64,000 nucleotides of DNA from a virus, in the IMG/VR virus record IMGVR_UViG_3300044712_001292, positions 39,000-102,999 of that record; one strand, given 5' to 3'. The position numbers and the translations under genes are program-made. Below are positions 9,321-63,524 of this stretch, piece by piece (position 1 is the first letter of the stretch; the number at the start of each line of letters is the position of its first letter). The notes under the pieces were generated by a model. The model made no database searches, was not told the origin of the DNA, and was given only the letters and a program-made list of their open reading frames with translations.

Positions 9321-12300
9321 ATGGACGCACCAGTTACGTACCGCCGCTTCGATGATATCGACGGGCAGCGCCAGGACATCTTCGACCTCGCGAAGCAGTC
9401 CATCGGGTCTATGAAGCCGTTCTCGACGCCGTCACACAGCGTCGAGATAGCTGACGTCGACTACGATGACGACTACAATCCGTCGATCGCTGAGGAGAAG
9501 GACGCCATCCTCAAGAGGAAGTCGTTGCAGCGTGCGCTGAAGGGTACGGTACGGCTGAAAGACGCTCAGGGTAATGTCGTCGAAGAGCAGCGGATGACGC
9601 TGGCCCACGTCCCCTATCTCAACTCACGCGGGCTCTTCATCCGAAACGGCGTGCCCTACGCGGTCCGTAACCAGCTGCGGCTGCGTCCGGGAGTTTATAC
9701 ACGCAAGCAGCGGAGCGGCGGCTACGAGAGCCAGTTCAACGTCCGCCCGGGGACCGGGCGCGGATTCCGTGTAGAGATGGACCCTGAAAGCGGTCTCTTC
9801 AAGATGCGCGTCGACCAGTCGACGACCAAGCTCTATCCTGTCCTCAGGGCGATGGGAGTGTCTGACGACGACATGCGTCAGGCGTGGGGCGACGATCTGT
9901 TTGAGAAGAACGCCGCAACCAGCAAGGGTCGAGACGAGCTAGACCTCTCCAAGCTGGTCCGCAAGCTCAGCGGCAAAGACGAGGATGTCGATCCCGAGAC
10001 AGCAGCGGAAGCCCTTCGTAACATCCTGCAGAAGAGTGAAGTGGATGAGGATACGACGGAGCTGACGCTCGGTGAGCGCGTTGCCCGTATCGAACCGAGG
10101 CACATCCTGGCTGCAACGCGGAAGCAGCTCGCTGTCGCACGCGGAGAGGCGGAGTCCGACAACCGTGACTCACAGGCGTATCAGTCGTTTCATGCCGCCC
10201 AGGACCTGCTGGCAGAACGTATGCGGCGTGACGCTACGGGGGCCGCTCGCAACTCGTTCTGGAAGGCTGCGCGGTTACAGTCGCTGAAGAACCTGCAGCC
10301 GGGGTTCATGAACCCGAACATCGGGTCGTTGTTCGAGGGTAGCGGGCTTGCCCTGACCGTTGAAGACATCAATCCGATCGACGTGTACGACACGCGCCAG
10401 GCAGTTACCCGTCTCGGGGAAGGCGGCATGTCGCGTGATGCGGTCAGTCGTGACGCTCGCAACGTCCAGAGCAGCTACATCGGCGTTATCGACGCTTCGC
10501 GCGCACCCGAGTCGGACGCGATCGGCGTAGACCTGCGCGTAACTGACGCCGCGATGCGCGGAAGTGACGGCCAGCTGTATACAACCGTGCGTAACCTGAA
10601 GACCGGCCAGCTCGAGACGCTGTCCGCGCGAACACTCTCGACAAAGTCCGTTACGTTTCCGGGAGAGATGGGGAACGAGGGAAAGCGCGTGCCTGCCATA
10701 CGGGGTGATCGCATCACCTACGTTCCTAAGAGCGAAGTCGACTACGAGGTCGTGAGCCCGGATGACATGGCGTCGCGCGCATCACGCCTGATTCCTTTCC
10801 CGGAAGGCATCAAGGGACAGCGTCTGCTCATGGGCGCTCGTATGACATCTCAGGCGGTTCCGCTTCAAGAGCCTGAGGCCCCATTCGTTCAGACGGGTAA
10901 CGCGGACGGGTCGTCTCTGCACGCTGCAATGGGCAGGGACGTCGGTGCCCGCATGTCTCCAGCCGACGGCATCGTGACCAAGGTAACACCAGACGTCATT
11001 GAGATGACGGGTAACGACGGACAGAAGCATCAGATTCAGCTCTATAACAACTACCCCACGGCCCGGAAGACCGTGCTGCACAACGACCCCGTCGTGCAGC
11101 CTGGCACGGTTGTGAAGGCCGGTCAGATGCTGGCCAGGTCCAATTTTACCGACGATAAGGGAACCTTCGCTATCGGGCGTAACCTGCGCGTTGGATACAT
11201 GGTTGCCGAGGGCGATAGCATCGAAGACGCCTTCGTCATCTCCGAAAGCGCAGCCAAGAAGCTGGGCGCTCAGGCGATGTACAAGGCGGATCTCGACCTC
11301 GGTCAGATCGCCTCGACAGACAAGTCCTCCTATAACGCGGTGTACGCCGGCAAGTACAGCCCCCAGCAGCTGGATCAGATCGATGACGACGGCGTCATCA
11401 AAGTGGGTGCTACCGTTCAAAAGGGCGACCCGCTGATACTCGCCATCGGCAACAAGCCGCAGTCCCTGGTCGGGGCAGTGACGAAGTCAGCCAAGTCTCA
11501 GGTGTCTGACCAGTCGCAGGTGTGGGAACACGCCGCTCCGGGAATCGTTACCGATATCAGCCGGACGAAGGACGGCATACGTGTGCTGGTCCGTTCGTAC
11601 GATGTCACGCAGGTTGGCGACAAGCTCTCCGGTCGTTACGGCAATAAGGGCGTGGTCAGCGCTCAGATTCGGCCAGACGACCAGATGCCGATCGCTGCCG
11701 ACGGGAAGCCGCTGGAAGCCATCATCAACGCCAATGGCATCATCAGTCGCGTCAATCCGGCAGCCCTAGCAGAGTCGCTGTTGGGTAAGATCGTGGAACG
11801 CACCGGGCGTGATCCGTACATTGTCAAACCGTTCAGCACCCCGGAAGGCATCGCTGATTTTGCGCTGAACGAGGCGGCCAAGCACGGGATCAGCGAGACG
11901 GAGACCGTCGTAGACCCGCGCGACGGCCGTAAGATCCCCAATGTCTTCGTCGGCAACTCCTACATCATGCGCCTTCATCATAAGGCCGAAGGCAAGATCA
12001 GCGGTAGAGATCAGGGCACCTACACGGTCGACGAATACCCAGCCCGTGGCGGCGCTGAAGGCTGCTTCATCGCCGAGCAGCCTGTTCTTACGCGGTTTGG
12101 CAGCATGCCCATCGGAGATATCGTTCATCTGAAGGCGGAGGTCCATGTATTGACGTGGTCTGACGTCGCCGGTAGCTGGGTCTATCGCCCCGTGACGGAC
12201 TGGTTCGAGTACACAGCACGGGCGTCCGACCTGCGAGTTGTCGAGCTAGAGCCTTCGACCGGCATTACGCACAACGTATTCACGGCGACACTAAATCACA

Positions 12301-14114
12301 ATGTCGTCATGTACGATGGTGGAATGAAGACGGTAGCGGAGCTGCATCCCGGAGACCGGCTGACGGCCATGAGCCAGGACGGTGCACGCGTTCCGGTTCG
12401 TATCGCCGATATTACACCCTATCAGGCGGACGAGGAGTTCATTGCTGTCTACGACATCACCGTCGACGACACGCATCTGTACTGCGCGGGCGCAGCCCTG
12501 GTGTCCAACTCCAAGCGTATCAGCCTGCTTGATACCGGAACACTTCTCGCAGCGGGAGCCACGAACTTTCTAAAAGATGCGAAGCTGGTTCGCGGTCAAC
12601 GCAATGACGACTACTGGCGACAGGTGCGGCACGGCGAGACGCCCATGCTGCCTACCGGTGCGTTCGCAGATGAACAGTTCAAGTCGCTTCTGAAGGCTGC
12701 AGGGGTCAACGTCCGTGAGGCGGGAACGAAGGAGCAGCTCAGCCCGCTGCTCGATACCGATGTCGACCGCATGGCGTCACATGAGATTCAGAACGCGGAA
12801 ACGTTCGATTTCGAGACGATGCGTCCGGTCGAGGGCGGCCTCTTCGATACAGGCATCACAGGCGGTGCCGGTGGCAACAAGTTCGCCAAGATCACGCTGC
12901 CGGTGAAGGTCCCGCACCCACTCTTCCTCGATCCGATCCGCCGTATCCTGGGCCTTACTGGCAAGGAGCTTGATGCGGTTCTGATGGGAAAGGAGCAGCT
13001 GAACGGGGAGACAGGACCGGGAGCGGTTGAGAAGGCACTCGGGGAGATCGACGTCCCCCGCGAGATGGAGCTTGCCAAGCAGACCATTCGGACGGGGTCC
13101 GCCACCAAGCGTGATGCGGCCGTCAAGCGCCTGCATTATCTTGCTGGGCTTCAGAAGATGCATGTGAGCCCGCAGGATCTCATGGTCAGCAAGATAGCGG
13201 TCGTCCCTCCGCGGTACCGGCCTATCGTCCGTGGTCGTAACACGGACATGATCCATGATCTGAACTACCTCTACAAGGACCTGCTCGAGGCCCGCAAGAA
13301 CTACCAGGATGCGAAGGGTGTATTCGGTGAGGCCCATGACGAGTATGGCACTCTGATGAAGGCTGTGCAGGCGGTCACAGGCATCGAGGGTCCTGTAAAC
13401 CCCAAGACGGCTGAACAGGGCGTCAAGGGTGTTCTACAGTACGCGATAGGCCTCGGCACGAGCCCGAAGGCAGGCGGTTACCAGCGCAAGGTCATCGGTA
13501 CTGCGGTGGATACAGTCGGGCGTAGCGTCATCACCGCCGACCGCTCGCTCGGGCTGGACGACGTCGGCATCCCCGAAACGATGGCGTGGAAGATGTTCCG
13601 GCCGTACGTCATTCGGAGACTGGTCACGCAGGGCATGCCGCCTGCAGAGGCGCTGCAGGCTGTAGAGGACCGTACCCCTGCAGCGGCAGCCATGCTCGAT
13701 GAGGAGATGAAGGTTCGCCCTGTCGTCTACAATCGGGCACCGGCCCTCCACCGCTACGCGTATCAGGGGGCGTGGGCTCGACGGGTGCCTGACGACTCCA
13801 TCCACGTGCCATACTACACGCTGAAGGCGATTGGTGGGGACTTCGACGGCGACGCTATAAACATCCACGTGCCATCCAGTTACGAGGCTATTGAAGACGT
13901 CAAGGAGAAGCTCATGCCGTCGAAGAACCTGTTCTTTACAGGTAACTTCGAGACGCATTACGAGCCGACGCAGGATTATACGCTCGGGCTGCACCTGGCT
14001 GGTAAGATGGACCCGAGCCAGAAGCCCGTTACCTTTGCTAACGCGCAGGAGGCTAAGGCCGCCTACGCTCGCGGGCTGATCAACGCACGCACCCCGATCA
14101 GGATCCTGTCATGA
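9321..14114 (+). CDS. Phage RNA polymerase beta / beta'(N) fusion, intein-containing
   Basis: 1597 residues. Two cellular RNA polymerase subunits can be read in one chain. Beta part: GRNLRVGYMVAEGDSIEDAF near residue 620 (cellular GRNLLVAF...FED), DKLSGRYGNKGVVS near 767 (GDKMAGRHGNKGVVS, active-site region) and LHHKAEGKISGR near 885 (KLHHMVDDKIHAR). Beta' N-terminal part: NRAPALHRYAYQG near 1470 and GDFDGDAINIHVP near 1507, whose three aspartates are the Mg-binding catalytic triad (cellular NADFDGD). The chain stops about 90 residues after that triad; the rest of beta' is encoded at 17433-19310. A 149-residue mini-intein interrupts the beta C-terminal region. The start has GAGGGG at good spacing. 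It probably transcribes phage genes and may be packaged, as in phiKZ-like phages; packaging is inferred from its virion-gene neighbours and Lys-x-Ala sites (LFEKNAATS). Confidence 0.9.
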   Translation: MDAPVTYRRFDDIDGQRQDIFDLAKQSIGSMKPFSTPSHSVEIADVDYDDDYNPSIAEEKDAILKRKSLQRALKGTVRLKDAQGNVVEEQRMTLAHVPYLNSRGLFIRNGVPYAVRNQLRLRPGVYTRKQRSGGYESQFNVRPGTGRGFRVEMDPESGLFKMRVDQSTTKLYPVLRAMGVSDDDMRQAWGDDLFEKNAATSKGRDELDLSKLVRKLSGKDEDVDPETAAEALRNILQKSEVDEDTTELTLGERVARIEPRHILAATRKQLAVARGEAESDNRDSQAYQSFHAAQDLLAERMRRDATGAARNSFWKAARLQSLKNLQPGFMNPNIGSLFEGSGLALTVEDINPIDVYDTRQAVTRLGEGGMSRDAVSRDARNVQSSYIGVIDASRAPESDAIGVDLRVTDAAMRGSDGQLYTTVRNLKTGQLETLSARTLSTKSVTFPGEMGNEGKRVPAIRGDRITYVPKSEVDYEVVSPDDMASRASRLIPFPEGIKGQRLLMGARMTSQAVPLQEPEAPFVQTGNADGSSLHAAMGRDVGARMSPADGIVTKVTPDVIEMTGNDGQKHQIQLYNNYPTARKTVLHNDPVVQPGTVVKAGQMLARSNFTDDKGTFAIGRNLRVGYMVAEGDSIEDAFVISESAAKKLGAQAMYKADLDLGQIASTDKSSYNAVYAGKYSPQQLDQIDDDGVIKVGATVQKGDPLILAIGNKPQSLVGAVTKSAKSQVSDQSQVWEHAAPGIVTDISRTKDGIRVLVRSYDVTQVGDKLSGRYGNKGVVSAQIRPDDQMPIAADGKPLEAIINANGIISRVNPAALAESLLGKIVERTGRDPYIVKPFSTPEGIADFALNEAAKHGISETETVVDPRDGRKIPNVFVGNSYIMRLHHKAEGKISGRDQGTYTVDEYPARGGAEGCFIAEQPVLTRFGSMPIGDIVHLKAEVHVLTWSDVAGSWVYRPVTDWFEYTARASDLRVVELEPSTGITHNVFTATLNHNVVMYDGGMKTVAELHPGDRLTAMSQDGARVPVRIADITPYQADEEFIAVYDITVDDTHLYCAGAALVSNSKRISLLDTGTLLAAGATNFLKDAKLVRGQRNDDYWRQVRHGETPMLPTGAFADEQFKSLLKAAGVNVREAGTKEQLSPLLDTDVDRMASHEIQNAETFDFETMRPVEGGLFDTGITGGAGGNKFAKITLPVKVPHPLFLDPIRRILGLTGKELDAVLMGKEQLNGETGPGAVEKALGEIDVPREMELAKQTIRTGSATKRDAAVKRLHYLAGLQKMHVSPQDLMVSKIAVVPPRYRPIVRGRNTDMIHDLNYLYKDLLEARKNYQDAKGVFGEAHDEYGTLMKAVQAVTGIEGPVNPKTAEQGVKGVLQYAIGLGTSPKAGGYQRKVIGTAVDTVGRSVITADRSLGLDDVGIPETMAWKMFRPYVIRRLVTQGMPPAEALQAVEDRTPAAAAMLDEEMKVRPVVYNRAPALHRYAYQGAWARRVPDDSIHVPYYTLKAIGGDFDGDAINIHVPSSYEAIEDVKEKLMPSKNLFFTGNFETHYEPTQDYTLGLHLAGKMDPSQKPVTFANAQEAKAAYARGLINARTPIRILS
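12063..12509 (+). other. Mini-intein (149 aa) inside the RNA polymerase beta region
   Basis: Residues 915-1063 of the fusion. Block A begins with Cys1 (CFIAEQPVLTRFGSMPIGDI), block B has TLNH within the THNVFTATLNHNVV stretch followed by GGMKTVAELHPGDRL, and blocks F/G are EEFIAVYDITVDDTHLYCAG then ALVSN, with Ser as the first downstream extein residue. There is no homing-endonuclease domain and no room for one. The penultimate residue is Ser instead of the usual His, which can slow Asn cyclisation but occurs in some active inteins. Removing it rejoins GGAEG to SKRISLLDTG, matching the conserved beta C-terminal segment GG...GGQR.GEMEVWAL. Confidence 0.88.
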
Positions 14115-31620: not shown

Positions 31621-31647
31621 CATGGCAGCGTGTAGTACGCTGCCATG
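31621..31647 (+). promoter_or_regulatory. Perfect 10-bp hairpin sequestering the glycosyltransferase start codon
   Basis: CATGGCAGCG (31621-31630) pairs perfectly with CGCTGCCATG (31638-31647) around TGTAGTA. The ATG of the next gene is bases 31645-31647, inside the right arm, and there is no ribosome-binding site before it. Start-codon access would depend on opening the hairpin. Confidence 0.7.
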
Positions 31648-33159
31648 ACGTCGTTTAAGGCCCTGTTCGATCAAGCCGAAGATGCCAAGCGCGCGGGACA
31701 ACACGACCGCGCGCTTGGCATTTACACGTATATTCAGAGCATTTCCGGAAGGTCTGACGCGAACGTCCATGCCGCGATTCAGCTCGGGTCCCTGTGGAAG
31801 GACCTGGGCTGCATGGACACAGCTTTCAAGGTAACGTACGAGGCGGCGCAGTCCCTTGATGCGTTGGGTAAGTACAGCGCTTCCGGCGGTATCTACACGT
31901 CGTTGGCATGTGCGGTCCTCTACGCGCCGGGCGTCACGCTCGAGAGCTATAGCAAGCTGGTACGGCGCGTGACCATGTCGTTGGATATGTCGATGCCGAA
32001 GGTTTCGCATCTGAACCATGATATGACGACACAGCGCCGACTGCGTGTAGGCATCCTCAGCCCAGATATCTGTCTCCACTCATTAGCATATCTGGTGGCG
32101 CAGCCACTGATGCGTTTTACCCGTGTTACGCCGCATGAATTGTACTTATACCACTTACGACCATCCATCGATTCCGTTACGAAGCAGGTAGGGCAGGCGG
32201 CAACGAAGCTCGTCCACGTACACGGCATGACCGACGACGCCATCGTCGACGCCATTACGGCTGACCACATCGACGTTCTCATCGATCTGTCCGGTTACAC
32301 CGCTGAGAGTCGTCTGTCCGTCTTTTGCCGACGCCCGGCCCCGGTACAGATGGGGTGGATCAGCGGAATGATGACGCCGACCGGTCTTCCGTCGCTGCCG
32401 TATTTTATGACGGATTCGTATATGCTGCCCCCGCAGCTACCTACTGGTCTGTGCATACCGATCACCGCAAAGACGGCTCTCACGTATCATACGCTGCGCA
32501 GCCAGGAGCTCGACATCGGACAACTTCCGCGAGATAAGACCGGTGTTATAAACTTCGCGAGCTTCAACAACCCGTGCAAGATCAATAACGATGTCCTGCA
32601 GGCGTGGGCCAGGATCATGCACGGGGTGCCGGGCAGCAGACTGCACCTGAAAACGTACAGTCCCATGGATTCGGCACGTATCGCCGAGTTCATGGCTAAC
32701 GCCAAGGTCGATCCGGGACGACTCGTACTGATGCCCCAGCTGCCGTCATCGACAGACGTGCAGAAGTATTACAGCGAGCGCGTCGATATCTTCCTCGACG
32801 CGTGGCCTTGCAGTGGCTGCCTGACGACAGCGGAAGCTTTATGGATGGGCGTACCCGTCGTTTCGTACTACACTGACGTATTCTGTTCGCGGCAGTCACA
32901 TTCCATCCTCAACACTATCGGTGTTACCGATCTATCACACCCGACGGTCGACGGCTACGTACAAGCAGCCGTGAATTTGGCCCGAGACGTCGGACGCTTA
33001 CGCGAGCTGAGGTCCACCCTGCGCTCACGCATGTCTCAGAGCCCGCTGTGCGACTACGACAGCATGGCTCGTGAAATAGGAAACGCCGTCGTAACTGCGT
33101 GGCAGCACGCCGCTGCCGCACGCAAAGACTCCCTTGACGCCCTGAGAAAGGCAGCCTAG
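31645..33159 (+). CDS. O-GlcNAc transferase / SPINDLY-type glycosyltransferase (GT41-like)
   Basis: 504 residues: an N-terminal TPR-like helical part (about 1-120), then a GT-B catalytic part. Signature segments in order: VGILSPDICLHSLAYLV near 136 (family SPDFxxHxVxxFL), DVLIDLSGYTAESRLSVFC then RRPAPVQMGW near 210-238, ASFNNPCKINNDVLQAWARI near 303 (FxSFNNxxKIxP), GSRLHLK, and PCSGCLTTAEALWMGVPVVS near 388-407 (family PYxGxTTTxxALWMGVPV). These build the UDP-sugar site. It probably adds a sugar to Ser/Thr of proteins; the location beside capsid and decoration genes points to a virion target, or to host proteins. A single-frame gene with normal local codon use. Confidence 0.85.
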   Translation: MTSFKALFDQAEDAKRAGQHDRALGIYTYIQSISGRSDANVHAAIQLGSLWKDLGCMDTAFKVTYEAAQSLDALGKYSASGGIYTSLACAVLYAPGVTLESYSKLVRRVTMSLDMSMPKVSHLNHDMTTQRRLRVGILSPDICLHSLAYLVAQPLMRFTRVTPHELYLYHLRPSIDSVTKQVGQAATKLVHVHGMTDDAIVDAITADHIDVLIDLSGYTAESRLSVFCRRPAPVQMGWISGMMTPTGLPSLPYFMTDSYMLPPQLPTGLCIPITAKTALTYHTLRSQELDIGQLPRDKTGVINFASFNNPCKINNDVLQAWARIMHGVPGSRLHLKTYSPMDSARIAEFMANAKVDPGRLVLMPQLPSSTDVQKYYSERVDIFLDAWPCSGCLTTAEALWMGVPVVSYYTDVFCSRQSHSILNTIGVTDLSHPTVDGYVQAAVNLARDVGRLRELRSTLRSRMSQSPLCDYDSMAREIGNAVVTAWQHAAAARKDSLDALRKAA

Positions 33160-38864: not shown

Positions 38865-40862
38865 ATGACCGAGCCCGTTACTACAGTACTGCCGACGACG
38901 CTCTTCCGGCGTTTCCGCGAAGTGCCGGCCACACTGTCGTCGCAAAACGGCGTCCTCCTCGCCGGTATGGCCTACGTCGAGCACGGATACAAGCGTGCAG
39001 CCGGTACGGGCGGCATCGGTCAGTACGTCGGCTCGACGCTGACAGCTGCGTGGCCGAATCTAGGTGTGAACGAAACGGTTCGTACATCGACGGCTGTCGC
39101 CACCATCGTTTCTGCCATCGTCCGTTACTATACGGAGACCGGCGCTCCCGGTGCTACCAAGGGCACACAGTACGGTACGGCGCCGAATAAGATCACACAT
39201 AACGGTACCGCGACCATCTGGACCGGAGCCGGGTTCACTCCGTCGCTGAACGTGCCTCTGGCTGTCGGTGACTATGTACGGCTGGACAATAACGGGGTGA
39301 CAGTTCTTCACACCCGTGTGACTGGTTTCGAGGCTATCGGCGGTCAGCTGAAGGTTCTTGTTCTCGCGGACAACATCCCGGCCGCGCTGACCGGCGTTGG
39401 CGTATACTTCAACGTCAGTGTCGGTCAGGTAGCGACTCTGGATCTGCTGAACAGCCAGCTGACCACGACTTCCAGCCAGGTCACGATTCCGGCCGCGCTG
39501 ACGGCCGCAACGTCGCGCACGGGCAGTGCCTACCCGGTTATAGGCGCCACGCTGCCGGATGGCACCGTCCTCGGCCAGGCCTATGTCGACTACTTCGCGA
39601 CACTGACGGGCGCCTTCACAGGCAACGTGGTGAAGTTGAAGACCGCCACCGACGTTTATGCGACGTTCCCGGATACCGGCGTAGGTTCGGGACTCGGCTT
39701 CGCCGCGCTCAACGCCCTATCGCCGACGGTTACGGGGCTTCAGCCTGCGCCGGTTGGCGTCATAGCTCCGACGAGCGATACGCTGGGTGGCTATCAGGCA
39801 CTCATCGACGTCATCCGTTTCCGGTCTGACTACAGCGCGATTGCCGTACTCAGCGAGGACTCGAGCGTCATAGCTGCGTTCGCTGATCTGCTGAACTCTC
39901 GCGCATCCAACTATCAGCCCGCTCAGCTGTTCGTCGGCATGTCGTTCACGAAGGACGAGGAAATCGGCTCGTCGACAGCCGTAACGATCAACGACTCGCA
40001 GACCCCAGGTGAGCAACGCACGTTCCTGGTTACGGCCGGAGCTCCGTTCGCAACCGCGGTAAGCGGTGACACCATCCGTCACTACACGTCTCCGACGGTT
40101 TATGTGACGTATGTTATCCAGTCCGTCATCAGCACCCAGACGGCTATCGTCACGTCTGCGGTGCCCGGCGGCCCCCTGGCTGCCCAGACCATCGAAGTCT
40201 GGCACCACCTGACGACGGCTGAGCAGGTCGCTTCGGCGATCGGCGAAGCACAGTCGTTTGCGAACGACTCGGTGAACCTGATCTACCCCGACACCTTCAC
40301 CTACGGCGGTGTATCGGTTCCGCCGTACATGATGGCTGCTTACGCTGCTGCGCTGCAGTCATGGTCCGCCCCGCAGCAGATGCTGTCGTACGTGGTACCG
40401 TCCTCCCCCTGGAGCGCACCGACGCAGGCGGCTGTGTCGGGCTATCAGGATGAGCTGGCGTCCGGCGGTCTGTTCGTGTTCGACGTATCGACGTCCGGTG
40501 TCCTCTACGTCCGCTTCCCGCGTACGACGGACCCGTCGTCTGATCAGACGTCTCAGTCTGTCGTTGTGGCGACGGAGCAGTTCGTTACGCGGTATATCGC
40601 CAGCCAGCTGACTCCGCTGCTGGGTCTGTACCGGACGTCGACGGAACTGTACGCTCAGCTGCGTACGAAGGCCTCCGCAGCACTGGCGTCGTTGCGGAAC
40701 GCGTCCGTCAGCGGTCTCGGTTCCATCATCATCTCTGGCACTGTCGGCGACATAGGCCAGAGCACGACAAACGCCAACACTGTCGTCGTTCCTATTACCG
40801 TATCGATTGCCGGCGTCGCTGAAGACATCCTCCAGCTCGATATCACGGTCACGCTAGGGTAA
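38865..40862 (+). CDS. Tail sheath protein
   Basis: 665 residues, followed after four bases by a 141-residue tube-like protein, the sheath-tube pair of contractile tails. Beta-rich insertion domains (residues about 90-290, e.g. LAVGDYVRLDNNGVTVLHTR) precede the core: GGYQALIDVIRFRSDYSAIA near 305 (the Rossmann-like part where sheath proteins read xxLIxALxxR), YGGVSVPPYMMAAYAAALQS near 475-500 and the C-terminal handshake region RYIASQLTPLLGLYRTS then VPITVSIAGVAEDILQLDIT. It would polymerise around the tube and contract at injection. Confidence 0.75.
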   Translation: MTEPVTTVLPTTLFRRFREVPATLSSQNGVLLAGMAYVEHGYKRAAGTGGIGQYVGSTLTAAWPNLGVNETVRTSTAVATIVSAIVRYYTETGAPGATKGTQYGTAPNKITHNGTATIWTGAGFTPSLNVPLAVGDYVRLDNNGVTVLHTRVTGFEAIGGQLKVLVLADNIPAALTGVGVYFNVSVGQVATLDLLNSQLTTTSSQVTIPAALTAATSRTGSAYPVIGATLPDGTVLGQAYVDYFATLTGAFTGNVVKLKTATDVYATFPDTGVGSGLGFAALNALSPTVTGLQPAPVGVIAPTSDTLGGYQALIDVIRFRSDYSAIAVLSEDSSVIAAFADLLNSRASNYQPAQLFVGMSFTKDEEIGSSTAVTINDSQTPGEQRTFLVTAGAPFATAVSGDTIRHYTSPTVYVTYVIQSVISTQTAIVTSAVPGGPLAAQTIEVWHHLTTAEQVASAIGEAQSFANDSVNLIYPDTFTYGGVSVPPYMMAAYAAALQSWSAPQQMLSYVVPSSPWSAPTQAAVSGYQDELASGGLFVFDVSTSGVLYVRFPRTTDPSSDQTSQSVVVATEQFVTRYIASQLTPLLGLYRTSTELYAQLRTKASAALASLRNASVSGLGSIIISGTVGDIGQSTTNANTVVVPITVSIAGVAEDILQLDITVTLG

Positions 40863-57044: not shown

Positions 57045-59412
57045 GAGGCTAGACCCTAAGGCTATAGCTGCCCGTGTGGGGTTGAATGGCGAACGTCCTG
57101 TGCCTAGCATCGTAGATTGCCCGCTATGCCATTCCAGTGGGAAGTTCGAGATACGCTCTGTCAACTATGTCCAGTGCCGTGCCTGCGGATTCATCGGGGA
57201 CTTCCTCCAGATGCATGCCGCGGTTCGAAACGAGAGCCTTTCGGCGACGATAGCCTCCCTGACGTCATCCGGGCTGCTCGACATGCAGGGGACCGAAAAG
57301 GCGTACCTGGGGAACGAGGTCGTACAGAGTTGGCTTCGGGCGGTCGTTGAAGACGGGGCCGCTACCCTCAAGAACGGGGCGCCAGGCAGCTTTCTAGCCA
57401 TCCTGAGCCATTATAACTGCCGCCTGGGGGTTCAGATACCTGAATCGCTGTATCGGCACGCTATACCCCTGCTGCAGTCGCGATTCGATAATATCGAGTT
57501 CCCGCTCCCCGCCGAAGCCGATCCGGTCTTCCGGTGGTGGGGCAAGAACGGGGCTATCGCTCTGCCAACTTATGACGGGTCTCGTATTATAGGGTTCTGG
57601 TTAATCACCGTAAAAGGCAACAACTACCTCCCCATCGTCACAAGCAAGACAGGCGCTGCACTCGGCCGCATACCGTCGTTAGGGGACGACGCCGTCTTCG
57701 TGATCGATAACGCTATCGAGGCTCTGCGGCTGACCGTGTGGTCCTCAGTCCACTGCTCTCGGCCGTACGGGTTCGTCGTACCGGTGGGCCTGCAGGACGC
57801 TCTCGAGCACTATGCTGCCAAACGCGTCATCTACTGGAGCATGACCGACGACACGCGCTGGATCATGCGCTCGCGTCACTGCGCACATAACCTGGTTCTG
57901 CTGAACAGCTCCGTGGGTCGAGGGTCCGGTCCTTTCCCCTGCAATGGCGATTTCCCGCACTTCATGGATATCGTCAAGAACTCTGCGGTAAGCACCTATC
58001 ACGGTATTGCCAAGCACCTGCTCACCATCCCTCGTCGACAGGCAGGTGAGGCCATAGCCACAGAGCCGATCGAGCCTACGGACAGGGCCCGCATCATCGC
58101 GCAGGCTACAGGTGAAGATGCAAGGTTTCTGCAGCAACTGTTTTCATCGCAGTCGCAGACGGTCGTCGACTGGTGCGGTACGCCGGTCACCGAGACGACG
58201 CGCGGATGGGTTACAAAAGGCAAGCTGATCAGCGCGGTGATGTTCTATATGGACGAAGTGCGCCCGCACGACACGGGTACGGACGCCACGGTGACCGGGT
58301 CGGTCGTCTACGACGGAAAGTCGGTGGCCTTCCAGGAGAAGCTTTCGACGTTACGTAAGAACACGGCGCAGTGGCTTGAGAGCTTCGTCGTCAAGAAGTT
58401 TGGAGCTATCTGTTTCATAGAACGCGCATGGCGCCCAAGGCTGCTCGAACTGTCGCAGCGTTTCAGAAAACCGAACGCCGTTATGCCGGAACAGCGGTAC
58501 GGCTGGTCAGGCAAGACGCTGCGTATGCCGTTCTTCATCGTCGACGACAAGGACGTTACGCCATCATACGAGATTGTGGACGGTCCGCGCATACCGCTAC
58601 CGTCACCGCTGTCGGCCGCCGAGCGTGACGCCTTCCAGAGCGAGTCGTTCTGTAAGATATTCCTGATGCTGCTACGCAATATGTTGAAGGCCAGAGACGG
58701 GGCTTCACACGGGTGGCTCCTCGTGAATCAGCCAACGCTGATAGACCGCGTAGCCTACGCGCTTGGTATGGACATTCAGTTCAACCCGTCGGATGCGGTA
58801 CTGCTGATGCAGCGGACTGAGCCAGTCATTCGCCCAACCTCGTTGACCGATAGCGTCACGCGCGTACTAGCACAGCGGCCGACGCACGCGTTGATCAGCG
58901 TCGACACGGCTACAGCGAAGATAGCCCACATATTTCACAGCTGGCCTATCATGTCCGTCACATCAGCGGTCGAGTACCAGCCCCTGCGTGGTGTGTTCTT
59001 TGCCGTGCACCACAGCTTATCGCAGCCACGGACGATCAGAAACCACCGTGACTGCGCTGTACTCGTGTCAGAGTGCTTCGATGTGAAAGGCGCTCTGAAC
59101 TACGCTGGACTCGAACTCGATCGCGAGGTCCTGGAATCCGAACAAAGCACGGCGACTAAATTGATGCGGTTTCTCGTAGAGCAGCACCTGGCAGGGGAGC
59201 TGGAGGCTGTGCCTACTGCGGACGGCATACGGGTGCGTACCTCGGATGTCGTAACATGCGTGACTGGCACACAGGTTGAGGTGCCCCCTCTGAAGGACAT
59301 CACCCGTCAGCTGGCATCCGGGGAGTTCCTTGTTGGAAATACCGAGTCGGAGTGGGAGCTGAAGACCGCCATGTGGTCTTTCTACACCTCCCTCGTCATG
59401 GCTGCGCGTTAA
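57043..59412 (+). CDS. Zinc-ribbon, TOPRIM-like primase-type protein
   Basis: 789 residues from the ATG at 57043, which has GGGAG eight bases upstream; an in-frame start at 56959 would lie over the divergent gene. Residues about 26-48 are CPLCHSSGKFEIRS...YVQCRACGFIGDFLQM, a primase-like zinc ribbon. DDAVFVIDNAIEALRL near 217-232 is in the place and style of a TOPRIM core strand-loop-helix (EGxxDAL), though its acidic residues are not canonical. A later RYGWSGKTLRMPFF resembles the turn of DUF927-type phage primase/helicase companions, without a full Walker A. A DNA replication primase or related nucleic-acid enzyme is most likely; the C-terminal 300 residues are unassigned. Confidence 0.5.
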   Translation: MRLDPKAIAARVGLNGERPVPSIVDCPLCHSSGKFEIRSVNYVQCRACGFIGDFLQMHAAVRNESLSATIASLTSSGLLDMQGTEKAYLGNEVVQSWLRAVVEDGAATLKNGAPGSFLAILSHYNCRLGVQIPESLYRHAIPLLQSRFDNIEFPLPAEADPVFRWWGKNGAIALPTYDGSRIIGFWLITVKGNNYLPIVTSKTGAALGRIPSLGDDAVFVIDNAIEALRLTVWSSVHCSRPYGFVVPVGLQDALEHYAAKRVIYWSMTDDTRWIMRSRHCAHNLVLLNSSVGRGSGPFPCNGDFPHFMDIVKNSAVSTYHGIAKHLLTIPRRQAGEAIATEPIEPTDRARIIAQATGEDARFLQQLFSSQSQTVVDWCGTPVTETTRGWVTKGKLISAVMFYMDEVRPHDTGTDATVTGSVVYDGKSVAFQEKLSTLRKNTAQWLESFVVKKFGAICFIERAWRPRLLELSQRFRKPNAVMPEQRYGWSGKTLRMPFFIVDDKDVTPSYEIVDGPRIPLPSPLSAAERDAFQSESFCKIFLMLLRNMLKARDGASHGWLLVNQPTLIDRVAYALGMDIQFNPSDAVLLMQRTEPVIRPTSLTDSVTRVLAQRPTHALISVDTATAKIAHIFHSWPIMSVTSAVEYQPLRGVFFAVHHSLSQPRTIRNHRDCAVLVSECFDVKGALNYAGLELDREVLESEQSTATKLMRFLVEQHLAGELEAVPTADGIRVRTSDVVTCVTGTQVEVPPLKDITRQLASGEFLVGNTESEWELKTAMWSFYTSLVMAAR

Positions 59413-60409
59413 ACAGCGCTTTCATGAGCGACCGTGTAAACACTTCCGGGGTTCTGGCAGCGAAGGCTTCAGCGCCAAGGCATGTGCGTGTCGTATGACC
59501 CGGGACGTCTGATAGGAACGTTTGCAGCGCAAGCAGTATGTCGGTGGAGTTCGCCCTATAGCAGAGTGGGCCGTCCATCACAGCGTCATATGCCGACATC
59601 CCTATGGTGCAGTTGTACTGATCGGAGAATACCTCGTAGACATGCGCCTTGAGCGTAGCCGTCACCAGGTGTCTCGACAGAGCATATGCGACGTCCCAGG
59701 GCCAGTAGGTGCATGGCTTCAGGGAGAGGTATATGTCAGCGGCATCCCAGGCCAGCCGAGAGGTCGTGAAGGCGACGCGAGACGAATCGATGTTATGCAT
59801 GCCGATACGGGTCGCATGGCGCTGGTCCTCCGAACCCAACAGTAGCGCGTTCATATGCTGCGTACGTGCCAGCGCAGCACAGACACTATCAGCGTATTCC
59901 GCTTCAGCGAGAACGACGGGGGCTCGGTGATCCCAGTGAGGCGCGAGTAGCTGGCGTATCTCCGTGCGGTTTATGGTTGTATCGTGCGCCTCCGGATAAC
60001 CCCATGGTACGACCGTCGCAGCTTCCACCGTCGTACCGTAAGCTATGCCGAGAGCGGCACCCGTGAGCTTCGTAGGGACCGCAACGCGTTCCACCTTCCC
60101 CGGGCCGTACCAGCTCATGTGTTCAACGGCGACGAAGTTGGAACTGCATAGGACGTAGGCACCATACACGAGACTGGGGACAATGGGCTGCCGGTGCAGG
60201 AAGTCCGGGTCGCCAATAAGCAGAATATGTGATACCCCCTCCACGGGCTCTCCAGACTGTCGGCGTGAGCAGCCTTGGATACCAAGATCCTCACCGTTGG
60301 TGACGTACGATACTGACGAGAAGTACCCCCGTAGGTGGGGAGCGATGGCACGAGTGAAAACATGCCCCAGTGCGGGGGCCTCTACGATGCATACGGCGGG
60401 TGACGTCAT
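59396..60409 (-). CDS. GT-B-like glycosyltransferase
   Basis: 337 residues from the ATG at 60409 (a GTG at 60430 is the alternative, closer to a TATAC box). N-terminal Rossmann half: VCIVEAPALGHVFTRAIAPH, HILLIGDPDFLHRQPIVPSL, VVPWGYPEAHDTTINRTEIR. C-terminal half: APVVLAEAEYADSVCAALAR, AADIYLSLKPCTYWPWDVAY, then ATLKAHVYEVFSDQ and CYRANSTDILLALQTFLSDV, the order of a GT4-type GT-B enzyme including an ADIYLSLxxxExWPxDxAYAL sugar-nucleotide region. Its 3' end overlaps that of the primase-like gene by 17 bases. Target unknown; it could work with the OGT homologue or on cell-surface glycans. Confidence 0.6.
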   Translation of the reverse strand: MTSPAVCIVEAPALGHVFTRAIAPHLRGYFSSVSYVTNGEDLGIQGCSRRQSGEPVEGVSHILLIGDPDFLHRQPIVPSLVYGAYVLCSSNFVAVEHMSWYGPGKVERVAVPTKLTGAALGIAYGTTVEAATVVPWGYPEAHDTTINRTEIRQLLAPHWDHRAPVVLAEAEYADSVCAALARTQHMNALLLGSEDQRHATRIGMHNIDSSRVAFTTSRLAWDAADIYLSLKPCTYWPWDVAYALSRHLVTATLKAHVYEVFSDQYNCTIGMSAYDAVMDGPLCYRANSTDILLALQTFLSDVPGHTTRTCLGAEAFAARTPEVFTRSLMKALFNAQP

Positions 60410-60469
60410 ACGCTTTACTAACCCCCACACGGGGTATAGTCAAGCAGTGTAATACGGGGGCGTTTTTGC

Positions 60470-61440
60470 ACATGGCGGGGTACGGCGGAGAAACCGTACC
60501 CTCTTAGGGGGCTGTAGCCCATCCCCACCTCCCCCTGGGGTCTGGCAGCCGCGCGTAGGCCCACACCAGCCTACGGCAACAGTATACCCCTAGGAGGGGG
60601 TATACAATATAACCCCTCCTAGGGGGTACCGTCGGGAAACAGCGAAATTGCTGCATATATAGATGAGGGTTGTACTAGGTATGACCTCTCACCGGGAAGA
60701 GACCCGGGCTGGCCTACCCCAGTAGGTTCCACAATCATGTGGCTAGGCTGCCTGCCTAGAGTTGTCCACAAGAGCGATGTGGAGTCGCCACCTTCCCAGG
60801 TATCGCAGGGTGCAACCCCCTGCTGGACCAGTATCTCGAAAGGGGTACTCACCGAGCCATCCGTCATGGTGGTCCCCCTGGCAGGGGCATACGTCGGTAG
60901 ATGTGAGGCGGTGCGATCCCGCTATACGAGGGGACGGGTGTGTCCCTCGCGTACATGGTACACCAGAACACGTTGTAGACGGGTTGAACGGCGTTGGCGT
61001 CCTGAGTGGCGACTTCGCTCTGAGACCATCTACTTCGAGGCTCCGGACGGAAGACTCCGTCTGACCTCTGTCCGATGTCGTAAGGTGTCGGCCAGGTTCT
61101 TCCAATCCGCAGCGGGTCATGCCTCTGCGGGGCGGACTCCCTTTAGGGACAGCAGACCTCGGCGAAAGATACGAGGCGGGCGCCATTGAGAGATATGGCT
61201 CCTGGCGGCTAAAGCCGTGCTAACTAAAGATGTAGCCTGCGTAGCGAGTCTACGGCACGCAGGTATTTCACGACAGAGACGGGCCACGCAAGATGCCTCC
61301 GCATGCGTGGGATGTGGTCGCGGATGCCGGTTCTGTGAAGACGCCGGAAACGTGCGCCGAGAGCACGTACTTCACTTGGCAGCGCACCGACCGCTCCGGA
61401 GGTGCTGTGACGTGGGTAGCCTAGAAACTACCCTGAGCGG
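60470..61440 (+). ncRNA. Candidate giant structured RNA (about 970 nt)
   Basis: No reading frame here has codon use or protein texture like the neighbours. Instead perfect short stems follow one another: 60478-60501 (GGGTACGG/CCGTACCC), 60554-60575, 60582-60605, 60692-60707, 60713-60726, 60729-60742, 60743-60759, 60765-60783, 61046-61061 (GACGGA/TCCGTC), 61157-61176, 61236-61263, 61284-61310, 61350-61368 (ACGTGC/GCACGT) and 61414-61433 (GGGTAG/CTACCC). Loops are purine-rich on the + strand (CGGAGAAA, AAGAGA, GCCGAGA, CCTAGAAA), which favours a + strand RNA. It lies upstream of a tRNA-like gene, the setting in which GOLLD and ROOL giant RNAs occur in phages; I cannot match it to either. Ends are approximate. 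Confidence 0.65.
60587..60625. repeat. Nested inverted repeat with mutually exclusive hairpins
   Basis: CCCCTAGGAGGGG (60587-60599) and CCCCTCCTAGGGG (60613-60625) are exact reverse complements, and each arm can also fold on itself (GTATACCCC/GGGGTATAC at 60582-60605; ACCCC/GGGGT at 60612-60627). Two alternative foldings are therefore possible, as in a switch, or it may be a protein-binding palindrome. Confidence 0.6.
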
Positions 61441-61463
61441 AATTCACTAAAAAGGAGTCCGAC

Positions 61464-61733
61464 GTGAAACACGTCACCAGAGCTATGGCCGTCGCCAGGG
61501 CGGCCCGGTGGGGCGTAGACCCCACCAACCTGACCGCCGCTCAGATTCTGGTGGCGGTCGACACTGCGAAGAACCGCTGGACGGTACTTCGCAGCGTGGC
61601 CCCCATGTCCCCGGAAAGCGGCGGCGACAGTCGCCCCGGGGATAGGACATTTAACTGGCGTGGTAGATCGTACCGCGTCAGTTACTTCCACAGCGGCGAT
61701 GTCGCGGGCATCACCGCTGTGGATGGGGATTGA
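61464..61733 (+). CDS. Small orphan protein
   Basis: 89 residues, GTG start with AAGGAG six bases upstream. Basic, alpha/beta: MKHVTRAMAVARAARWGVD then NLTAAQILVAVDTAKNRWTV, a disordered loop (SPESGGDSRPGD), and a beta end WRGRSYRVSYFHSGDVAGIT. Not recognised. It lies between the candidate giant RNA and the MYG1-like gene, and a pseudoknot begins five bases after its stop. An RNA-linked function is tempting but unsupported. Confidence 0.6.
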   Translation: MKHVTRAMAVARAARWGVDPTNLTAAQILVAVDTAKNRWTVLRSVAPMSPESGGDSRPGDRTFNWRGRSYRVSYFHSGDVAGITAVDGD

Positions 61734-61738
61734 CGACA

Positions 61739-61767
61739 CCCGGAGCCTGCCCGGGTTACCAACAGGC
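61739..61767 (+). ncRNA. H-type pseudoknot, copy 1
   Basis: CCCGG (61739-61743) pairs with CCGGG (61751-61755); the loop GCCTG (61745-61749) pairs with CAGGC (61763-61767) across TTACCAA. Starts five bases after the stop of the 61464 gene. Nearly identical to 62963-62991. Confidence 0.7.
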
Positions 61768-61931
61768 GGTCCGTCGGGGGACCTTAAACCGTGTTAGGCC
61801 CGACGCGTCCGCCATCTGGCGGGGTCACATGACTGACTGTGGGGTGTACCCGCGGGTCGGTGAGGCGCCGGTACCGTAACACCGGGTTTCGCAGGCTCTC
61901 GGAACCTGCATGTTCTCGAAAGGAACATACC
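61768..61931 (+). promoter_or_regulatory. Structured leader of the MYG1-like gene
   Basis: Three small hairpins: CCGCC/GGCGG (61809-61822), GCAGG/CCTGC (61891-61909) and TGTTC/GAACA (61911-61927). The last places the ribosome-binding AAGGA (eight bases before the ATG at 61932) in its loop and right arm, so translation could be controlled. No reading frame is supported here. Confidence 0.45.
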
Positions 61932-62957
61932 ATGCTGCAGATCGTCGGAATCAATACGGCCCGCGCTTGCGCCAAGGAGGGCAGCCTCCTAATCGGTACC
62001 CACTCGGGGCCGTTCCACGCCGACGAGGCCGGGGCCATCGGCCTCGTCGAAATGTACCGGGAGGCGTTCGCCCTCGGCGCCGTCGCCGCGGTGCGTACCC
62101 GCAATCCCGCGGAGCTCGCCTCCATCAAGGAGGCCGGTGGCGTCCTGGTGGACGTCGGCGGCGAGTATGTCCGCCCCAAGGGACCGGATCTCCGCGGTCT
62201 CCTGGCGGACCACCACCAGAAGGGTGGGGCGTGCCCGCCGCGCCCCAATGGGGTCCCCTACTCCAGCTTCGGGCTGGTGTGGCGGGAGATCGGCCCCGCC
62301 ATCTGCCGCCACACCATGGCCCAGCTTGGGGTCCCCGAGCTCGACGAGGCGGTCGTCGTCGATACGGTGGACGAGGGGCTCGTAAGCGCCATCGACGCCA
62401 CGGACAATGGAGCGGTCGATACGGTTGCGACCGTGAAGTCGACGGGGCGCCCCATGGCCCACTGGGGTGTCAGCCTGGTGGTGCACCAGATGAACCCGCC
62501 GGCGATCCCGGGCCTGGAGCAGAACTTTGACGAGGCCTTCATGAAGGCCGTCAAGTTCATGCAGACCTGCGTGGCAGCGGCGGTGGTCTCGGCCATCGCT
62601 GAGGAGGCCGCGAAGGCCACTGTCCGCAAGGCCATCTCCATCTCCACGGGACCGGTCCTCCAGCTCGACACCTATGTCGACTGGCAGGACACCGTGGCGC
62701 GTGAAACGACCGACGTGCTGTACGTGATCTTCCGGAACCCCGAGGGGACCTGGATGGTCCAGCAGGTGCCCAAGGCCCTGGGATCATTCGAGGGCCGCAA
62801 GCCCTTGCCGGCCGCGTGGGCCGGGCTGCGCGACACGGCGCTGCAGGCCGTCACCGGCGTGCAGGACGCGGTGTTCTGCCACAACGGCAGGTTCATCGCC
62901 GGGGCCAAGAGCCGTGAGGGTGCCCTGCGCCTCGCCAGGCTCGCCGTGGAGGCGTAA
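61932..62957 (+). CDS. MYG1 / UPF0160-family nuclease-like protein
   Basis: 341 residues from the ATG at 61932, chosen for AAGGA at eight bases; an in-frame start at 61839 lies in a structured leader. Signature segments: IGTHSGPFHADEA (about 21-33; family THNGxFHCDE), VRTRNP near 54, DVGGEYVRP near 74 (DVGGxYDP), LADHHQKGG near 91 (DHHQ) and AIDATDNGAVDT near 152 (DAIDNG). These acidic and His residues form the metal site of DHH-like MYG1 proteins, which in eukaryotes act as 3'-5' RNA exonucleases. The catalytic set appears intact. The C-terminal third (QVPKALGSFEGRKPLPAAWA, FCHNGRFIAGAKSREGALRL) matches the family end. Setting among structured RNAs suggests RNA processing (inference). Confidence 0.85.
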   Translation: MLQIVGINTARACAKEGSLLIGTHSGPFHADEAGAIGLVEMYREAFALGAVAAVRTRNPAELASIKEAGGVLVDVGGEYVRPKGPDLRGLLADHHQKGGACPPRPNGVPYSSFGLVWREIGPAICRHTMAQLGVPELDEAVVVDTVDEGLVSAIDATDNGAVDTVATVKSTGRPMAHWGVSLVVHQMNPPAIPGLEQNFDEAFMKAVKFMQTCVAAAVVSAIAEEAAKATVRKAISISTGPVLQLDTYVDWQDTVARETTDVLYVIFRNPEGTWMVQQVPKALGSFEGRKPLPAAWAGLRDTALQAVTGVQDAVFCHNGRFIAGAKSREGALRLARLAVEA

Positions 62958-62962
62958 CCCCG

Positions 62963-62991
62963 CCCGGAGCCTGTCCGGGTTACCAACAGGC
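62963..62991 (+). ncRNA. H-type pseudoknot, copy 2
   Basis: CCCGG (62963-62967) pairs with CCGGG (62975-62979); loop GCCTG (62969-62973) pairs with CAGGC (62987-62991). 29 of the 30 bases from the first C onward match copy 1, and again it begins five bases after a stop codon, here that of the MYG1-like gene. Confidence 0.7.
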
Positions 62992-63002
62992 GACCAGGAA
63001 AG

Positions 63003-63270: not shown

Positions 63271-63300
63271 TACACCAATACGTTGCACTTTTCACCTCCC

Positions 63301-63393
63301 CTACCAGATAGGTTGGGCCGGTGTAACAATCGTGAATCACGCGCCTTCGGGTTGCGTGGTCACACTGTTACACTGGCTCAGCGTATCTGGTAG
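63301..63393 (+). ncRNA. Three-tier 93-nt hairpin
   Basis: Outer stem CTACCAGATA/TATCTGGTAG (63301-63310 with 63384-63393), middle stem GCCGGTGTAACA/TGTTACACTGGC (63317-63328 with 63366-63377, one G-U), apical stem CACGC/GCGTG (63338-63342 with 63354-63358) closing on a loop containing CTTCGG. It lies just upstream of a T-run and the tRNA-like gene. Confidence 0.65.
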
Positions 63394-63426
63394 GGTCGGT
63401 GTGTTGTGGGTTCGGCCGTTTTTTTT
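63394..63426 (+). terminator. Possible terminator before the tRNA-like gene
   Basis: GGTCG (63394-63398) can pair with CGGCC (63413-63417, one G-U), and eight T residues follow at 63419-63426. The stem is short with a 14-base loop, so this is tentative; the long hairpin just upstream may contribute. Confidence 0.4.
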
Positions 63427-63436
63427 ACCTATGAAC

Positions 63437-63524
63437 GCGGAATGCGCCTAGCAGCCGACTCATAATCGGTCCTCGTTAAACGCTGGGTCGGTCGAGAGAG
63501 GTTCGATTCCTCCATTCCGCACCA
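63437..63524 (+). tRNA. tRNA-like gene, anticodon CAT, atypical D arm
   Basis: Seven-bp acceptor GCGGAAT/ATTCCGC (63437-63443 with 63514-63520), discriminator A and encoded CCA (63522-63524). Anticodon arm GCCGA/TCGGT with loop CTCATAA, anticodon CAT at 63461-63463 (Met, or Ile if the C is lysidine-modified). T arm AGAGG/CCTCC (outer A-C mismatch) around TTCGATT. The D-arm region is only 10 bases (normal about 19), whereas the variable region is 26 bases with CTCG/CGAG able to pair. So it is tRNA-like but not a standard cloverleaf. Confidence 0.55.

Follow-up and report, generated by a model that had tools for sequence, protein, structure and literature searches.

GOLLD RNAs are encoded by phages and prophages, often near a tRNA island, and form a homo-oligomeric nanocage. 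Their 5′ part is variable and their 3′ part is conserved (PMC12286853). Phage ICP1 produces a non-coding RNA of ~800 nt, which is its most abundant transcript (PMC7567579), and phage K encodes two long intergenic RNAs of 0.6-1.2 kb, lnc001 and lnc002, one of which has its own promoter (PMC9241854). Long non-coding phage RNAs as a kind are therefore already known; the locus described here probably represents a new family of them, as judged from RNA libraries and the literature. The large phage RNAs described so far are few, and what they do is still to be settled. Another family outside Rfam, its start element defined and its relatives carrying structured counterparts, would help to establish what has to be conserved in them and would demonstrate that searches by sequence overlook RNAs that evolve fast.

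The window analysed, a stretch of 64,000 nucleotides, runs from base 39000 to the end of a virus record of 102,999 bases, the source phage of which is designated G000. Comparison of the interval 60431-61463 with 4,227 families of Rfam 15, GOLLD and ROOL included, gave no match apart from WT1-AS_4 at E=5.7, which was taken as chance, and the OLE, HEARO and raiA models were likewise not matched there. The GOLLD and ROOL covariance models returned nothing relevant up to E=10 in G000 and up to E=1 in its relatives G006 and G007, and Rfam searches of the wider region and of the relatives returned nothing but tRNAs and a sub-threshold Pistol ribozyme. The first-pass annotation had likened the locus to GOLLD and ROOL and proposed a divergent member or a new class; membership finds no support in these searches, and a new family fits better.

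Like GOLLD, the locus is phage-borne, measures about 0.8 kb, holds many stems and is better conserved towards an end, but it matches no covariance model and apparently does not lie beside a tRNA island; its tRNA context is one tRNA-like gene 2 kb downstream and an array more than 60 kb away. With ROOL it shares the phage genome, a length of about 0.6-0.7 kb and the many stems; it differs in the missing covariance-model match and in that its counterparts show no common interior structure. A stretch of about 1 kb without an ORF, as described for ICP1 and phage K, is present at the locus, and both it and the ICP1 RNA lie outside known families as far as described; the ICP1 transcript has been observed, whereas the RNA of the G000 locus is predicted from DNA sequence and likened to it by description. 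The phage K RNAs lie beside tRNA genes and were seen in RNA-seq, in contrast to the locus with its distant array.

The site in the window and in related phages

The phage shows a distant likeness to Salmonella phage Arash and Vibrio phages D69, D148 and D181 (portal 22%, capsid 27% identity). Seven related IMG/VR contigs were found via the major capsid protein, the nearest being G005-G008 (75-82%), which have the gene order p398-p357-p817 in common; a search of GTDB genomes with the capsid protein found none, and cultured phages yielded no nucleotide homologue of the locus. The comparison set comprised nine related records of about 1.3 Mb, and the search for homologues of reading frames took in eight related genomes. 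The G008 contig stops short of the locus and gives no information there, and L143 is a near copy of G007 that adds nothing independent. Arash is the closest relative in culture, and two stretches of 0.9-1.0 kb that its deposited annotation leaves blank were considered and rejected as counterparts; they hold ORFs and are not convincingly hairpin-rich (170752-171655 and 172541-173536, with minus-strand ORFs of about 144 and 151 aa). The features of the locus are as follows.

59396-60430, minus strand: divergent gene, remotely homologous to the glycosyltransferase-like genes that occupy the corresponding position in G005-G007
60478-60627, no strand assigned: array of DNA dyads upstream of the start element
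60478-60501: dyad GGGTACGG/CCGTACCC
60554-60575: dyad CGTAGGC/GCCTACG
60582-60605: dyad GTATACCCC/GGGGTATAC
60613-60626: dyad CCCCTCCTAGGGGG
60653-60668, plus strand: start element GCATATATAGATGAGG with the core TATATARATGAGG at 60656-60668, conserved, candidate phage promoter
60667-60687, plus strand: P1 hairpin of 9 bp, GGGUUGUAC-UAG-GUAUGACCU, directly at the start element
60667-61440, plus strand: body of the candidate long structured non-coding RNA, based on lack of coding signal and hairpin count; 3′ end approximate
61284-61310, plus strand: CUCC-loop hairpin near the 3′ end, in a layout common to G006 and G007, with modest support in G000

The divergent gene is homologous among G005, G006 and G007 and remotely so in G000 (E=1.6e-4). 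It has no Pfam, PHROG or NCBIfam match; its earlier designation as a glycosyltransferase is based on remote homologues. Elsewhere in the window, a gene for a family 41 (O-GlcNAc-transferase-like) glycosyltransferase at 31645-33159 lies within the structural module.

Counterparts of 0.7-1.0 kb, divergent from homologous genes, are present in G006, where 1.1 kb without genes is followed by MYG1, a gene also found in the window, and in G007, where 0.8 kb without genes precedes a 135-aa ORF. In G005, dyads are followed by tRNAs; at the place of the RNA (L067, about 6435-6250, minus strand), one tRNA appears by eye to be split, with about 120-170 nt lying within its anticodon region. The CCCC-n-GGGG dyads cluster at the locus in G000, G005, G006 and G007 and are fewer in G001 and G003, and every non-coding dyad of this type in the G006 record sits there. 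The dyad nearest to the start element lies 24-33 nt away, the distance read from the sequences being 26 nt in four of six phages. The array is probably operator or promoter DNA outside the RNA.

G000, G006 and G007 each have a single copy of the core TATATARATGAGG, at the same place, with no further copy within one mismatch in about 1.3 Mb, and a weight matrix gives the three start elements 25.6-29.5 bits, the next best site reaching 16.1. A sister element, GTATATTATAGTGATGG, stands behind similar dyads in G003 and G001, and no sigma-70-like promoter was found at the locus. When IMG/VR was scanned for the start-element pattern, matches beyond G006, G007 and L143 came at about chance level; L104 and L129/L132 have non-coding DNA behind the motif but were unconvincing as members. 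The 5′ end of the RNA probably lies near 60667, with the first 190 bases of the interval being upstream DNA.

Coding signal and folding of the interval

Codon usage indicates no gene in 60431-61463, where the longest ORF, of 150 aa, scores -47; Pfam gives no match, and the two long ORFs have neither a homologue nor a conserved frame in the eight related genomes. The first-pass view that the interval holds no plausible protein was thereby upheld, the conserved frame in homologues that would speak against it having been looked for and found absent. Its count of at least 14 short perfect stems was also confirmed: with a loop of 3-9 nt and a stem of at least 5 bp, 60470-61440 contains 18 perfect hairpins, whereas 200 dinucleotide shuffles average 5.8 and all stay below 18. 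With a stem of at least 6 bp the interval contains 9 compared with 1.6 in shuffles. The window average per 971-nt tile is 8.0 and 2.8, respectively. The purine-rich loops reported earlier amount to a mild bias, about 63% purine in the loops of hairpins with at least 6 bp as counted by hand from the hairpin list. As for the extent of the RNA, the body does lie within the interval first proposed, but the initial 190 bases are set apart as upstream DNA and hairpin enrichment passes 61440 and extends to about 63.4 kb.

The body behind the start element alone has 13 perfect hairpins as against 4.8 in shuffles (p 0.005). For the counterparts of the locus the figures are 20 vs 5.3 (G006) and 9 vs 3.8 (G007). 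Across the nine records, the densest tiles are the G006 counterpart, the G000 locus, tRNA arrays and some coding tiles; comparable non-coding tiles are the tRNA arrays only, which act as positive control. Folding energy behaves differently. The MFE z-score of the whole interval is -5.6 on the plus and -5.0 on the minus strand, and this signal comes largely from the first 190 bases with the dyads at 60478-60627, upstream of the start element; the body alone (60651-61463) has a z-score of about -2.9, and of 31 control tiles taken from this genome, 6 rank ahead of it. Because the folding energy of the body is unexceptional for this genome, the case rests on perfect hairpins, position and conserved ends instead of energy.

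The two strands cannot be told apart by their MFE z-scores. In four phages, stable tetraloops whose stem has at least 5 pairs were counted on both strands: the proposed sense strand has two in G000, one in G006, four in G007 and three in G003 (shuffle means 0.26-0.37), and the antisense strand one, none, one and none, respectively. G007 and G003 show a clear excess, G000 (p 0.05) and G006 a weak one; being on the sense strand, the excess favours an RNA in the plus direction.

Directly behind the start element, a hairpin of 9 bp in G000, 13 bp in G006 and 12 bp in G007 is found, the chance of such a P1-type hairpin being 0.004, <0.0003 and 0.0009, respectively. Between P1 of G006 (AGUAUUAGCUAU/AUAGCUGGUACU) and of G007 (AGUUAUGCUAUC/GAUAGCGUGGCU), 8 of 12 pairs differ on both sides with pairing kept, in a purely descriptive comparison of two sequences by eye, with a one-base shift behind the anchor. 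In G000, G006 and G007 alike, the loop of the 3′ hairpin is CUCC, and the helix that carries it differs in sequence and pairs in each. Its layout pattern was drawn up after the sequences had been seen and occurs by chance about once per 80 kb; since, in addition, its sequence is not conserved in G000, support there is modest. A scan of IMG/VR with the CUCC motif gave no new members. BLASTN of the G006 against the G007 region matched nothing but two short segments, 17 nt close to one end (CGTATATATAAATGAGG, E=1.7e-4) and 20 nt close to the other (around AGCCACCTCCACGYGG, E=0.002). A global structural-profile alignment of the counterparts in G000, G006 and G007 was no better than shuffles, and their interior could not be aligned and showed no alignable covariation; hence pairing-preserving changes are demonstrable only in the short terminal hairpins, which is as far as the alignment of homologues proposed earlier bears out the stems.

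Downstream features and the proposed transcription unit

Downstream of the interval the following features were located.

61464-61733, plus strand: 89-aa ORF with the Shine-Dalgarno sequence AGGAG, of no known family (Pfam etc.)
61739-61768, plus strand: first copy of a 30-nt pseudoknot-like repeat, 5 nt past the stop codon of the 89-aa ORF
61772-61829, plus strand: candidate Pistol self-cleaving ribozyme, full length, 32.8 bits in Rfam (gathering score 34.5), E=0.0025
61932-62957, plus strand: MYG1 gene (PF03690; UPF0160), which in G006 directly follows the RNA
62963-62992, plus strand: repeat, copy 2, 97% identical to copy 1, 5 nt behind the MYG1 stop
63293-63427, plus strand: very long hairpin with a run of eight T (MFE -81, z -10.75)
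63436-63524, plus strand: tRNA-like gene, 25.6 bits with the tRNA-Sec model, below the Rfam threshold

The Pistol candidate, below its gathering score, sits between two phage genes. Eukaryotic MYG1 has been described as a 3′-5′ RNA exonuclease (PMC11167044). The core of the repeat has two exact copies only in the window, and the repeat could form an H-type pseudoknot. The tRNA-like gene at 63436, noted earlier, has CAU in the anticodon position (read by eye), a long variable arm and a CCA end, and was not called by ARAGORN. The actual array, just outside the window and about 61-66 kb upstream of the locus, contains at least 27 tRNA genes (L017 12243-18441, record 32.2-38.4 kb; 27 by ARAGORN, many divergent) and is perhaps a nearly complete set.

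In the reading that we favour, at about even confidence, a phage transcription unit yields as its first product a long structured non-coding RNA, the start of which is fixed while its body changes fast; that the locus encodes a functional RNA of some kind is somewhat more likely than not. The element GYATATATARATGAGG behind the CCCC-n-GGGG dyads would mark the RNA start, as its conservation suggests, and would be a promoter, perhaps read by the multisubunit RNA polymerase that the phage itself encodes. The RNA would open with P1 at about 60667, continue as a chain of stable hairpins over some 0.6-0.8 kb and carry the CUCC-loop hairpin near 61300. No short-loop terminator was found on the plus strand at the locus, and transcription may continue across the 89-aa ORF and MYG1 as far as the long hairpin at 63.3-63.4 kb. 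This hairpin is likely the end of the unit; it is the nearest strong termination-like structure on the plus strand, so that a primary transcript could take in the RNA, the 89-aa ORF, the Pistol candidate, MYG1 and both repeats. Cleavage by the Pistol candidate or by nucleases would then separate the RNA part from MYG1. In the RNA polymerase beta gene (window 9321-14114), an insert at about residues 915-1063, absent from relatives, seems to be an intein.

Alternative explanations and the nature of the cargo

Of the other readings, a long structured 5′ leader that controls in cis the gene behind it (the 89-aa ORF and MYG1), for example by pairing of the CUCC loop with the Shine-Dalgarno sequence, survives best; we consider it unlikely, with an appreciable chance nevertheless. 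No terminator stands between the RNA and the following ORF in G000, G006 and G007 (in the latter two by reading of the sequence), all three have a Shine-Dalgarno sequence 70-150 nt downstream of the CUCC hairpin, and MYG1 is downstream in two of them, G000 and G006. Yet the gene behind varies between the 89-aa ORF, MYG1 and the 135-aa ORF, about 0.8 kb would be very long for a leader, and in G003 about 0.7 kb of hairpins is closed by a terminator, a perfect 17-bp hairpin followed by nine T.

The site might instead be a variable accessory one, at which a conserved promoter is combined with changing cargo (tRNAs, ORFs, relics) and the cargo in the window is decaying and functionless. The sister locus of G003 and G001 fits this picture, as the two phages agree over the first 184 nt (92%) and again over an 83-nt element further on (97.6%) but have unrelated sequence in between, with an ORF, read by eye, in G001; the site can thus hold different cargo. 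The tRNAs at the site in G005, the unconserved interior and the ordinary folding energy also agree with it. Decay, however, would not keep 13-20 perfect hairpins and one-strand tetraloops in four phages, and Rfam, Pfam and the eight genomes revealed no tRNA or protein remnants; we consider this reading quite unlikely.

Very unlikely, in our estimate, is that the site acts as DNA, for example as an origin of replication or in partition, in which case the dyads would be protein sites, the AT-rich element a melting site and the hairpins structures of single-stranded DNA. The dyad cluster, the AT-rich element and the about equal folding of both strands relative to shuffles are as expected for it; relatives show no GC-skew switch at the site, the tetraloops are biased to one strand, and ordinary transcribed cargo lies behind the start element in G005 and G001. 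A divergent GOLLD or ROOL member, for which size, the tRNA-rich phage genome and the variable 5′ and conserved 3′ parts of GOLLD (PMC12286853) could be adduced, is extremely unlikely given the covariance-model searches.

For the favoured long structured RNA, we put the chance that it acts independently, and not just as a leader, somewhat short of even. The least certain step is that it may work in trans as a stable fold that binds host RNA or protein machinery, by analogy with GOLLD, ROOL and the ICP1 and phage K RNAs, and that it is under constraint at the ends but can vary freely inside. A broader proposal, tentative and on the unlikely side, is that of a conserved RNA cassette site, at which a promoter made up of the dyads and TATATARATGAGG would drive a different, densely folded RNA of 0.7-1 kb in each lineage; the ends (P1 and the CUCC hairpin) would be fixed, the interior would turn over quickly, and the class would be selected for folding and not for sequence.

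The 83-nt element of the sister locus (G003 about 69721-69803, G001 170602-170682, both minus strand), with unrelated flanks, might adopt a fold of three stems ahead of a gene start and is perhaps a regulatory RNA.
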